From assembly GCA_025454405.1 (NCBI GenBank), contig JALOON010000005.1, forward strand, positions 1 through 64,000: a stretch of DNA of 64,000 nucleotides, given 5' to 3'. Positions 39,621 to 43,559 of this stretch are shown in pieces. The position numbers and the translations under genes are program-made. The notes under the pieces were generated by a model that was given only the letters and a program-made list of their open reading frames with translations, made no database searches and was not told the origin of the DNA. This DNA is from Oscillatoriaceae cyanobacterium Prado104. GTDB lineage: Bacteria; Cyanobacteriota; Cyanobacteriia; Cyanobacteriales; Microcoleaceae. The number at the start of each line of letters is the position of its first letter. The first letter of the stretch is position 1.

Positions 39621-40682
39621 ATGCCCCACCATCTGTACCACCTACTAGCATTTCTGGTTTCCGCGATCGTCGTCCTCTGGAGTACGCCAATAGTCAAAAA
39701 AATTGGCCTCAAAAGCGGGCGAGTCGATCGACCGGGCGATCGTAAAGTCCACCAGCGCCCGATGGTTCGCTTGGGAGGAGTGTCTATCTTTCTCGGCACC
39801 CTCATTGCCCTGATTGTTGTCTGGCTTTCAGGAGGTTTCATCGATGCTAGCGGACAAGTTCTCAATCCCAAAGATGAATATGAAATCTGGGGAGTTACTC
39901 TCGGTGGCATCGGATTCTTTCTGATCGGTTTGGCAGACGACTTGTTTTCGCTTTCGGCATTCAAACGCTTGCTCATGCAAACTGGAGTGTCCGGTATTGC
40001 TTGGATGGCAGGCGTCAAAATTGAGTTTCTCACAGTTCCTTCCGTCGGACTGACCGATCTTGGCTGGCTGAGCCTGCCGATTACCGTAATCTGGCTCGTC
40101 GGCATGGCCAACGCCATCAACTGGATCGATGGTTTGGACGGTTTGGCTGCTGGAGTTTCGGGGATTGCAGCGGTTGTCATGCTGATTGTCAGCCTGTTCA
40201 TGCACCAACCGGCGGCCGCCCTGATTGTGGCGGCCTTAGCTGGGGCTACCTTGGGATTTCTGCGCTATAACTTCAATCCGGCTCAAATCTTTATGGGAGA
40301 TGGCGGAGCCTATTTCATAGGATTTACTTTAGCTGGAGTGGGAGTAATTGGATTAGTTAAAACTACGGCTGTGACTTCTGTGGTGCTGCCATATTTAATT
40401 TTAGCTGTACCGATTTTAGATATGTCGGCGGTGATTCTCGATCGCCTCCGCAGCGGCAAATCACCGTTTATTGCTGACAAGCGCCACCTCCACCACCGAC
40501 TGCTGAACGCGGGACTATCGCATCGATTTGCGGTGTTGTTTATTTACTCGCTGACGCTTTGGGTGGGCAGTTTGGCTCTGGCTTTTTCGGGAATTCCCAG
40601 CGGCATAATTTATGCTATGGGGGCAACCGGTTTGCTGGGTTATGCTAGCTGGAAAGTGTCAAGAACTCGCCGCCAACCCTAG
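39621..40682 (+). CDS. WecA/MraY-family undecaprenyl-phosphate sugar-1-phosphate transferase
   Basis: 353 residues, about ten transmembrane helices. Family motifs: RPGDRKVHQRPMVRLGG, GLADDLFSLSAF (the DDxx Mg site), NAINWIDGLDGLAAGVSGIA, FNPAQIFMGDGGAYFIGF, and the cytoplasmic loop DKRHLHHRLLNAGLSHR characteristic of the WecA branch rather than of MraY itself. It transfers a HexNAc-1-phosphate from a UDP-sugar to the lipid carrier, starting polysaccharide or O-antigen synthesis. Its stop is directly followed by the candidate IscB omega-RNA segment. Confidence 0.92.
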   Translation: MPHHLYHLLAFLVSAIVVLWSTPIVKKIGLKSGRVDRPGDRKVHQRPMVRLGGVSIFLGTLIALIVVWLSGGFIDASGQVLNPKDEYEIWGVTLGGIGFFLIGLADDLFSLSAFKRLLMQTGVSGIAWMAGVKIEFLTVPSVGLTDLGWLSLPITVIWLVGMANAINWIDGLDGLAAGVSGIAAVVMLIVSLFMHQPAAALIVAALAGATLGFLRYNFNPAQIFMGDGGAYFIGFTLAGVGVIGLVKTTAVTSVVLPYLILAVPILDMSAVILDRLRSGKSPFIADKRHLHHRLLNAGLSHRFAVLFIYSLTLWVGSLALAFSGIPSGIIYAMGATGLLGYASWKVSRTRRQP

Positions 40683-40900
40683 GTATGGCGGAAGCTTGTC
40701 ACAAGCTTTAACTTGACCAGACTAAGGTTCTCGAAACCTACGTTATTTGAATCATGAAACCTACAGATACGTGCCAGTCTGTAGCTCTTTCGTACAGCTT
40801 TAAACAGGCGTAACGAGTTAAACCAGTGAGTTGTACTGTCACAAGTTCAAATAACATTGTCGAGGCAAACTTTACCAACGCAAGTTGAGAGTCGTAAGTA
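40683..40900 (+). ncRNA. Candidate omega RNA of the IscB locus
   Basis: 218 bp between the transferase stop and the iscB ATG, with no frame but dense pairing. Elements: AAGCTTG-tca-CAAGCTT (40692-40708); AGGTT-ctcga-AACCT (40725-40739); a long-range perfect 10-bp stem GTTATTTGAA (40742-40751) with TTCAAATAAC (40846-40855); inside it CTACAGA-10 nt-TCTGTAG (40761-40784) and GTACA/TGTAC; and a 3' AACTT/AAGTT hairpin. In known IscB loci the omega RNA lies upstream and on the same strand, with its guide at the 5' end. Boundaries are not exact; transcription is not shown. Confidence 0.65.
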
Positions 40901-42190
40901 ATGCGAATTTTCGTACTCGACAAAAACTTAAAACCTCTTGACCCCTGCCACCCTGCCAGAGCAAGAGAACTCCTCAAAAAGAGAAGAGCAAAGGTTTTTA
41001 AACGGTATCCTTTTACGATCGTATTACAGGAGAGAACTGTTGAAAAATCAGTAACTCATTCTCACCGCATTAAAATCGATCCGGGGAGCAAAACAACTGG
41101 TGTTGCTGTTGTCGTTGAAGAAACAGGTCGCGTAACCAATGCACTCTTAATCTCTCACAGAGGACAACAGATTAAACACTCGCTATACGCTCGTAAAGCA
41201 TTAAGAAGAGGAAGGCGGAACAGGAAAACTCGTTACCGTCAACCTCGATTCTTAAATAGGAATCGTAAAACTGGATGGTTGCCGCCCTCTCTAGAAACTC
41301 GGATTGCCAATATCGAGACTTGGGTGAGACGCATCAGGAAAATCTGTCCGGTGACAGCAATCTCTCAGGAGCTTGTCAGTTTTGATACGCAAGCCCTTCA
41401 AAATCCTGAAGTTAGTGGCATTGAATACCAACAGGGAGAGCTTTTCGGGTGGGAAGTTAAAGAGTATTTGCTCGCAAAATGGGGGAGAAAATGTGCTTAC
41501 TGCAGAGCAGAAAATATCCCGTTAGAAATTGAACACATTATCGCAAAATCGAAAGGAGGTAGCAATCGCGTTAGCAATTTAACACTAGCTTGTCGCAAGT
41601 GCAATGAAGCTAAGGGAAATCAGCCGATCGAGCAGTTCCTCAAGCAAAAGCCGGATGTTTTGAAGCAAATCCTAGCTAGAGCTAAAGCACCATTAAAAGA
41701 TGCTGCCGCAGTCAACGCTACTCGATGGGAGTTGTACAGAAGGCTTCAATCCACTGGTTTGCCAGTAGAAGTAGGGTCTGGCGGGCTAACAAAATTCAAT
41801 CGTCAAACCAGAGGAATCATCAAAGCTCACTGGACTGATGCCGCTTGTGTGGGTTCATCCACTCCAGAACGATTGCTGCTGCGAGGAATAAAACCCCTCT
41901 TGGTAACAGCAAAAGGACATGGAACCAGACAGCGCTGCCGTCCCGATAAATACGGTTTCCCTGTTTGCCATGCTCCAAAAGCTAAATTCTTCAAGGGATT
42001 TGCTACTGGAGACATAGTTAAAGCTGATATTCCTGCTGGCAAATATGCTGGAAAATATATCGGGCAAATCGCTATCAGATTTAGACCCAGCTTCCTGTTG
42101 CTACTGCCTGACAAGCGTTTTGATGTTCATCCTAAATATCTCACAACTATTCACAAAGCTGATGGCTATGAATACCACATCTCAAAATAA
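40901..42190 (+). CDS. iscB: IscB RNA-guided nuclease (RuvC-HNH)
   Basis: 429 residues with the full IscB layout. PLMP-type domain (1-45: KPLDPCHPARARELLKKRRA, RYPFTIVL); RuvC-I IKIDPGSKTTGVAVV (D60); Arg-rich bridge helix ALRRGRRNRKTRYRQPRF (100-117); RuvC-II ISQELVSFDTQALQNPEVSG (E157); HNH domain with zinc Cys198, 201, 231 and 234 and the catalytic IEHIIAKSKGG (H212) and N226. RuvC-III is KAHWTDAACVG (H310, D313). A C-terminal TAM/omega-RNA-interacting region follows. All catalytic residues are present. IscB is the IS200/IS605-associated ancestor of Cas9. No TnpA transposase is nearby, so the element would need help in trans. Confidence 0.9.
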   Translation: MRIFVLDKNLKPLDPCHPARARELLKKRRAKVFKRYPFTIVLQERTVEKSVTHSHRIKIDPGSKTTGVAVVVEETGRVTNALLISHRGQQIKHSLYARKALRRGRRNRKTRYRQPRFLNRNRKTGWLPPSLETRIANIETWVRRIRKICPVTAISQELVSFDTQALQNPEVSGIEYQQGELFGWEVKEYLLAKWGRKCAYCRAENIPLEIEHIIAKSKGGSNRVSNLTLACRKCNEAKGNQPIEQFLKQKPDVLKQILARAKAPLKDAAAVNATRWELYRRLQSTGLPVEVGSGGLTKFNRQTRGIIKAHWTDAACVGSSTPERLLLRGIKPLLVTAKGHGTRQRCRPDKYGFPVCHAPKAKFFKGFATGDIVKADIPAGKYAGKYIGQIAIRFRPSFLLLLPDKRFDVHPKYLTTIHKADGYEYHISK

Positions 42191-42302
42191 TTAGGGCATG
42201 GGTAATAAGTAATGGGTAACGAGTAATAGCCAATAAAAATCTCCTGCCCTATGTTTCGATGCTCTGCGGCTAATGCCCCAATCTAAAATCTAAAATTGTT
42301 CT

Positions 42303-43559
42303 ATGGTTGCTGAAATTATTTGTGTCGGTACGGAACTGCTGTTAGGCGATATTCTTAATAGCAATTCCCAGTTTTTAGCTAAAGAATTAGCGAGTTTGGG
42401 AATTGCTCACTACTATCAAACCGTAGTGGGTGACAATCCAGAACGCATCAAAAAAGTATTAGAAATAGCTATCGGGCGATCGCAGCTTTTGCTGTTCACG
42501 GGAGGTCTCGGCCCGACACCGGACGACCTCACTGTCCAAACCATCGCCGATTTTTTTGGCGTTCCTTTAATCGAAAATCCGGAAATTATTGCCGATATCG
42601 AACAAAAATTTGCCCAACGGGGACGCACCATGACGCCCAGCAACCGCAAGCAAGCTTTGATTCCCGAAGGTGCGGATATTTTGCCCAACCGCACCGGTTC
42701 GGCACCGGGCATTATTTGGCAGCCTGTTGCTAACGTGACGGTGATGACTTTTCCCGGAGTACCGGCGGAAATGCACTTGATGTGGCAGGAAGTTGCTGTT
42801 CCTTACCTGCGAAATGCGGGGTGGTGCAGCGCAACTATTTACAGCCGCACTCTAAAATTTTGGGGTATTACTGAGTCGGCACTCGCAGAAAAGGTCGATA
42901 GTTTTCTGAATTTAACTAATCCGACTGTTGCGCCCTACGCCAATCACGGTGAGGTGAAATTGCGGATTTCGGCCCGCGCTGAGTCGGAAGCTGCTGCTAA
43001 AAATTTAATCGGTCCGATCGAACAACAGTTGCTGCAGATTGCTGGCCTAGACTGTTACGGTGCCGATACCGATACCCTCGCCTCGACTGTGGGTAAATTG
43101 CTACTGTTGGCTGGCGAAACTCTTAGCGTGGCTGAATCTTGCACCGGAGGCGGGTTGGGAGCGATGCTGACTGGCGTTGCCGGGAGTTCGAGGTACTTTT
43201 TGGGCGGGATTATTTCTTACGACGATCGAGTTAAGGAAGCATTATTAAATGTTAGTCCCCAAGATTTAGCCGAATTCGGTGCGGTCAGCCACCAGGTAGC
43301 AAAACAAATGGCTGCGGGAGTGCGCGATCGCCTGAATACGGATTGGGGATTGAGCATTACGGGCATCGCCGGCCCCGGAGGCGGTACGGATGCGAAACCT
43401 GTCGGACTGGTTTACATCGGTTTGGCGGGACCTAGCGGTGAGCTAGAAAGCTGGGAATGCCGTTTTGGCGAAGGTCGCGGTCGCGATTGGATTCGCAATC
43501 TAAGTATTTGTACTGCGCTCGATCGGCTCCGCCGAAATTTATTGTTAAAAAATACGTAA
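42303..43559 (+). CDS. cinA: CinA-family protein (competence/damage-inducible)
   Basis: 418 residues with both usual domains. The N-terminal MoeA/molybdopterin-binding-like COG1058 domain is AEIICVGTELLLGDILNSNS, LFTGGLGPTPDDLTVQ, ...TMTPSNRKQALIPEGADIL. The C-terminal nicotinamide-nucleotide amidohydrolase domain is VAESCTGGGLGAMLTGVAGS, FLGGIISYDDRVKEALLNV and SITGIAGPGGGTDAKPVGLV. Role in NAD recycling by NMN deamidation, and named for co-expression with competence genes. Preceded by AAAATCT heptads. Confidence 0.95.
   Translation: MVAEIICVGTELLLGDILNSNSQFLAKELASLGIAHYYQTVVGDNPERIKKVLEIAIGRSQLLLFTGGLGPTPDDLTVQTIADFFGVPLIENPEIIADIEQKFAQRGRTMTPSNRKQALIPEGADILPNRTGSAPGIIWQPVANVTVMTFPGVPAEMHLMWQEVAVPYLRNAGWCSATIYSRTLKFWGITESALAEKVDSFLNLTNPTVAPYANHGEVKLRISARAESEAAAKNLIGPIEQQLLQIAGLDCYGADTDTLASTVGKLLLLAGETLSVAESCTGGGLGAMLTGVAGSSRYFLGGIISYDDRVKEALLNVSPQDLAEFGAVSHQVAKQMAAGVRDRLNTDWGLSITGIAGPGGGTDAKPVGLVYIGLAGPSGELESWECRFGEGRGRDWIRNLSICTALDRLRRNLLLKNT

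Follow-up and report, generated by a model that had tools for sequence, protein, structure and literature searches.

An IscB/HEARO element in the last codons of a cyanobacterial wecA gene, without a detectable right end

A candidate gene for the nuclease IscB with a structured segment in front of it raises the question of whether protein and RNA belong together as a pair, and, if so, which DNA such a pair would address. The window in which the candidate lies (the whole stretch of DNA analysed, 64 kb on contig C13 of a genome of 8.5 Mb) carries on its + strand, in this order, a glyA-like gene, a wecA-like gene, HEARO, iscB, and cinA (Table 1); the upstream neighbour is what we take, from its sequence, to be glyA-like. 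NCBIfam WecA/MraY models matched the wecA-like protein only below their cut-offs. Among named genomes, this protein was 93% identical to its counterparts in a Microcoleaceae MAG and in Tychonema bourrellyi, and about 91% identical to those of many Microcoleus, which makes a cyanobacterium of this group the likely host.

Table 1. Positions of the features of the wecA-iscB region in the window
Feature	Coordinates	Strand	Basis
wecA-like glycosyl transferase family 4 gene, 353 aa; host gene interrupted by the insertion	39621..40682	+	PF00953, 128.6 bits
Predicted 16-nt guide ATGCTAGCTGGAAAGT, still wecA-coding; equals the pre-insertion target	40642..40657	+	Last 16 nt before the scaffold
Omega RNA scaffold HEARO, RF02033; first base is the element's left end	40658..40875	+	cmscan; wecA homology break
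Stretch with two roles: first bases of the omega RNA scaffold, and replaced wecA C-terminal codons plus stop (SRTRRQP, stop)	40658..40682	+	Translation versus relatives ending WRHAR
10-bp long-range stem, 5' arm	40742..40751	+	Overlaps covarying helices 2 and 3
10-bp long-range stem, 3' arm	40846..40855	+	Pairs perfectly with 40742-40751
iscB, 429 aa, with the active-site residues of RuvC and HNH	40901..42190	+	NF040563, PF14239 RRXRR, PF01844 HNH
RuvC-I D60 codon	41078..41080	+	Aligns with IDPG motif of solved IscBs; 121/121
RuvC-II E157 codon	41369..41371	+	Alignment to homologues and solved IscBs
HNH core, C198 to C234, including H212	41492..41602	+	PF01844 at residues 198-241
RuvC-III D313 codon; H310 three residues earlier	41837..41839	+	Homologue alignment
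Stretch of 81 bp without alignment to the sister genome or to related right ends	42191..42271	+	Alignments
Host intergenic sequence; homology with the empty-site sister genome restarts	42272..42302	+	Comparison with G014
cinA, right neighbour	42303..43559	+	NF001813, 539.4 bits

The protein was examined against curated models and solved structures. The 429-aa ORF scored 461.1 bits against the NCBIfam model guided_IscB (cut-off 175), and its reading frame is open throughout, in agreement with the original prediction of a complete IscB gene. Solved IscBs matched it with a best E of 1.5e-39, the best-scoring stretches stopping near residue 320. The catalytic residues that had been proposed (D60, E157, and D313 of RuvC and H212 of HNH) were placed correctly; an alignment to solved IscBs puts them at the active-site residues, and they are invariant in all 121 aligned sequences, namely the window protein and 120 listed homologues. 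The four expected zinc cysteines are present as well (C201, C231, and C234 in 121/121 sequences, C198 in 120/121). Likewise, the proposed bridge helix corresponds to the arginine-rich stretch R98-R122, and the PLMP-type domain is covered by the RRXRR model at residues 3-179 with 237 bits, its motif reading PLDP. The notion that 429 residues is notably short was not borne out. All of at least 7998 scored candidates passed the homologue search, and of the best 120, which are 76-96% identical, 113 are 426-432 aa long; the window IscB is thus of ordinary length within a very large family. Alignment A2 comprises 37 of these 120 listed homologues. An AlphaFold2 model of the protein, with an alignment of close homologues as input, had a mean pLDDT of 46.4.

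The upstream RNA was assessed against family models. When the whole window was scanned with cmscan, a single Rfam match was obtained, HEARO, at 132.7 bits (cut-off 83; E 2.5e-27); it is full-length (model positions 1-211), with both model ends reached. An omega RNA had indeed been predicted upstream of iscB, and that location stands, whereas the proposed start at 40683 does not: the scaffold begins 25 nt further left. The perfect 10-bp stem that had been noted was found as described and forms part of the HEARO fold. HEARO also scored above cut-off upstream of IscB in 29/29 relatives (L025-L053). Covariation was measured on alignment A1, whose 25 rows are the window, 23 of these 29 IscB loci, and L070 (L030, L037, L038, L043, L048, and L049 stand outside it). 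Changes on both sides were seen in 27 of 34 predicted pairs, so that the stems, as the original note had proposed to check, are conserved upstream of homologues. The covariation score was 0.651, compared with 0.212 in shuffles, and was reached by none of 500 shuffles, while sliding the partner gave at most 0.140; paired cells made up 95.8% in the predicted structure versus 73.2% in shuffles, a large margin, even allowing for the advantage that the predicted structure gains from being built on the alignment it is scored against. By these sequence comparisons, the window IscB and its omega RNA are a real, correctly recognised pair of known families.

To what site does this pair belong? Across 30 wecA loci (L054-L083), the alignment with the window's wecA ended at 40657 in 25 and at 40656 in two, the other three ending at 40659, 40662, and 40652, one locus each. 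For the Microcoleus/Tychonema-group loci (L054-L077), the homology break was at 40657 in 23 of 24; the break at 40659 in L055 reflects two bases agreeing by chance. In the sister genome G014, which shows 92% DNA identity on both sides, homology likewise breaks at 40657 and resumes at 42272. The alignments place the insertion within a codon for valine that lies five codons ahead of the wecA stop; a new wecA end and stop are encoded by the initial 25 nt of the omega RNA gene. Accordingly, wecA of the window ends ...SWKVSRTRRQP before its stop, where relatives end ...SWKVWRHAR or in close variants. All 26 same-genus wecA loci compared (L135-L160) end ...SWKVW(R/M)HAR, none with the window's tail; the genome sets behind L054-L083 and L135-L160 probably overlap, and their counts are not independent. 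HEARO was not found in the 20 wecA loci searched for it (L135-L154). The set of 26 empty wecA sites used below consists of L054-L078 and L080, that is, 26 of the 80 fetched, with L079 and L081-L133 left out. As a separate observation, the wecA locus of another cyanobacterial MAG (L097) has HEARO-like motifs, recognised by two short patterns, within 1500 bp downstream.

The other end of the element was sought by comparison with related copies. After the iscB stop, 83 nt in L025 and 90 nt in L026 precede the resumption of the flank, and this right-end stretch contains an inverted repeat between GCAATTCCCC and CCCCTTGCC. In the window, no significant match to the L025/L026 right end was obtained (best E 0.06), and the original wecA tail was absent (best match with 5 mismatches of 12). 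The 81 bp that follow iscB contain short tandem repeats at 42198-42227, and no TAM was found in them. The simplest reading would be that one deletion removed right end, TAM, and wecA tail; the loss is judged from lack of similarity, and a very diverged short right end is possible. No TnpA gene was found on the window's contig, and the four Y1_Tnp matches in the genome all lie on other contigs. TnpA is unable to excise an element without a right end. With no right end detectable, the window element is probably immobile. Its predicted guide equals the left-end flank and an empty site exists, both IS605-type features, and the element is likely of IS605 type.

Several further elements were seen in the same genome and genus. 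Two short HEARO elements, L016 (G000:C141:145218-145437) and L020 (G000:C107:30070-30334), have omega RNAs of 160 and 124.5 bits with no iscB match alongside, and the right end is readable in L020; such elements may be non-autonomous, or they may supply omega RNA in trans. The two scaffolds share only about 61% identity with that of the window. Immediately beyond the right end of L020, ATGA opens an ORF, such that TAM and gene start coincide; the ORF is presumably a cobyric acid synthase gene, judging by the look of its sequence. In L017 (G000:C28) and L018 (G000:C143), a HEARO above cut-off is followed by a truncated or internally deleted iscB. Open frames of 344-348 aa that match IscB in its N-terminal part only occur in L007 (C77), L009 (C126), and L010 (C58) of G000; they have the length of IsrB nickases, and weak HEARO matches precede two of them. 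In the pairs L029/L030 and L033/L038, each from different genomes, matching sequence after iscB is followed by different right flanks, which suggests that such elements moved recently within the genus.

The TAM was read from natural insertion sites. The bases after the wecA site are NTGG in 26/26 relatives examined. Empty sites corresponding to L025, which has a clean insertion junction, read TTGG in four of six and TGGG in two, and those of L027 read GTGG in both of the two that align across the site (four compared). For L026, ATGG follows the left flank in 5/5 empty sites; the insertion is not a clean one, since the sequence matching its right flank starts only 339 nt beyond the left junction, in a second repeat copy, with GTGG in 5/5. 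The L026 target gene holds the site twice (CATTT-ATGG and CATTT-GTGG), both NTGG. In L026 and L197-L201, the gene that was hit has two similar units, and the left and right flanks derive from different units, so that the insertion would have been accompanied by loss of the intervening 339 nt. Given the 26/26 relatives and the mostly agreeing empty sites of L025, L026, and L027, the TAM of the window's IscB subgroup is likely to be NTGG, a prediction from genomic sites. When 388 sampled genomes of the class were searched for this subgroup (E ≤1e-190, at most four candidates scored per genome), only L220 was found besides the window; its IscB is 67% identical to that of the window, and, by analogy only, its right end would be followed by ATGG.

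Among the 26 other cyanobacterial IscB elements in L025-L053, 18 end before ATGA or GTGA, an NTGA motif read by eye from element ends only. HEARO elements are reportedly inserted before ATGA or GTGA (Weinberg, 2009). The five elements read as NTGG are set apart from the 18 read as NTGA by several alignment columns, and in the printed alignment R345, within RQRC, was found in 5/5 of the former versus 0/18 of the latter. R345 was not adopted as a TAM-setting residue: L033 also has RQRC, and its element end, by eye, is not NTGG. RQRC occurs in L049 too, whose element end was not placed. In view of these two loci, no residue is claimed as the TAM determinant. Neither an IscB at wecA nor an NTGG IscB was found among the literature matches listed (titles and abstract starts, open literature only), and NTGG is absent from the main text of PMC13180657, the part of that source consulted.

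The guide of OgeuIscB is 16-17 nt long according to the available sections of PMC9640706, and the predicted guide of the window was compared over 16 nt. It is identical to the corresponding sequence in 9 of the 26 relatives; in 15, only guide position 2 (15 from the TAM) differs, and the remaining two differ at one other base and at two bases, respectively. OgeuIscB tolerates mismatches at positions 15-16 and not at 1-14, as described in the accessible text of PMC9640706. By analogy with this rule, the sites of 24 of the 26 relatives would be cut, and that of the sister genome would not. The sister site (G014, L135), which is followed by TTGG, differs at 3 of 16 guide positions (15, 12, and 3); thus, not every relative would be a target. 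It is of note that L135, the closest relative, carries three mismatches, while 24 of the 26 named relatives, most of which are more distant, match the guide at 15 or 16 positions; the L135 mismatches could represent either escape or chance. In its own genome, the guide is perfectly matched by the element itself only. A second genomic target was considered and rejected, since matches with up to three mismatches numbered 108, fewer than the 419 of a reversed control pattern. Where the element itself sits, the guide copy runs into GTCA of the scaffold, which is not the TAM, and self-cutting is not expected for that reason.

Taken together, the point of insertion, the chimeric end of wecA, the omega RNA family match, the catalytic residues, and the absence of a detectable right end, all read from sequence, suggest an IscB/HEARO element that sits in the last wecA codons without a detectable right end and whose guide would target insertion-free wecA; we put the probability of this reading at roughly 0.8. 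The guide-scaffold RNA would be derived from a wecA read-through transcript. A scan for one promoter type found no promoter-like site just upstream of the guide; the two sites in the region both lie on the opposite strand, versus a mean of 4.6 in shuffles. IscB would bind the RNA, and the complex would cut unoccupied wecA beside an NTGG TAM, sparing its own locus, where the guide copy adjoins GTCA. In an intact element, such cutting would favour retention of the element at its site. Without the right end, the activity left would be the cutting of empty alleles that derive from recombination or reside on other chromosome copies.

The alternative that survives best, and which we regard as a serious though minority possibility, is that the element is a decaying transposon copy that is no longer active, whose intact ORF only reflects a recent insertion while the protein starts to drift. 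It would account for the lack of a detectable right end and for two departures from near-invariant columns: position 389 (codon 42065-42067), located in the C-terminal part, is Q in the window IscB and R in the other 120 aligned sequences, including the 96% identical P0001, and position 184 is W where 119 of 121 aligned sequences have F. Q389 and W184 could represent early decay. It also fits the company of the window copy, which is the only full-length IscB match in its genome, the other 14 covering the protein only in part, and the two internal stops in L025, the closest relative in the genomes searched. Against decay speak the full set of catalytic residues and zinc cysteines and the full-length HEARO match. 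The low pairwise dN/dS between the window iscB and L025 (0.15 over 2.4) points the same way, although the value is saturated and reflects the family rather than the window copy; over five pairs, dN/dS was saturated or undefined in most and has no bearing on the window copy.

A stronger claim than our main reading, of a targeting IscB/HEARO element in wecA, would be that the immobilised IscB clears NTGG-flanked insertion-free wecA alleles and thereby drives the chimeric allele to fixation. Here the omega RNA would double as the wecA end, the guide would be unable to drift because it is wecA coding sequence, and the drive would act among chromosome copies and against incoming DNA of relatives. 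We consider this unlikely, though worth stating. Much less probable still is a domesticated regulator, in which IscB with its wecA guide would act on wecA or on partly matching sites. Nuclease-dead TnpB relatives act as regulators, and such a role would suit an element that is probably immobile, whose protein is intact and whose guide is presumably fixed by the wecA coding constraint; however, unlike a dead regulator, the window IscB has its nuclease residues intact, the guide matches perfectly nowhere in the genome but at the element, and near matches are fewer than in the reversed control. Finally, a chance ORF beside an unstructured spacer, with no functional pair, is refuted by the guided_IscB match, the HEARO match, and the covariation, and its likelihood is negligible.

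For the targeting element that we favour, the many close relatives with empty sites allow guide, target, and likely TAM of a natural IscB-omega RNA pair to be read from genome sequence ahead of experimental work. The predicted NTGG, set against the ATGA or GTGA of the 18 of 26 other cyanobacterial IscB elements, would widen the range of TAMs. Because the element overlaps a conserved host gene, it offers a case for asking whether an IscB lacking one element end goes on acting as an allele-specific drive. With its wecA overlap, a target and TAM that can be read from genomes, and no right end detectable, the locus goes slightly beyond the routine.

These features can be compared with known systems. 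IscB-family proteins cut dsDNA where a match to the guide of the omega RNA adjoins a TAM (available text of PMC9640706). Like the window protein, OgeuIscB (PDB 7UTN, 7XHT, 8CSZ) has a PLMP-type N-terminus, a RuvC domain split by an arginine-rich bridge helix, and an HNH insertion, together with an upstream omega RNA of about 200 nt bearing the guide at its 5' end; the motif reads PLDP in the window IscB versus PLMP in OgeuIscB-type systems. Residues D61, E193, H247, H340, and D343 of OgeuIscB, as given in the accessible part of PMC9640706, correspond to D60, E157, H212, H310, and D313 of the window. The TAM of OgeuIscB is NNRR in the same part of that source, whereas that of the window is predicted, from natural insertion sites, to be NTGG. 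In TnpB systems, the site of insertion is preserved in the guide, and copies without the element are cut by the nuclease; the available portion of PMC11870625 reports such drive on plasmids, whereas for the window it would concern a chromosomal IscB with one element end not detectable. The NTGG and NTGA classes seen among cyanobacterial IscB elements have counterparts in the IsrB nickases, NTGG being the TAM of BbIsrB and NTGA that of DtIsrB in the accessible text of PMC9581776; IsrB lacks the HNH domain, which the window protein has. The window copy matches the HEARO family (RF02033) over the full model, but its first 25 nt also encode the end of wecA.
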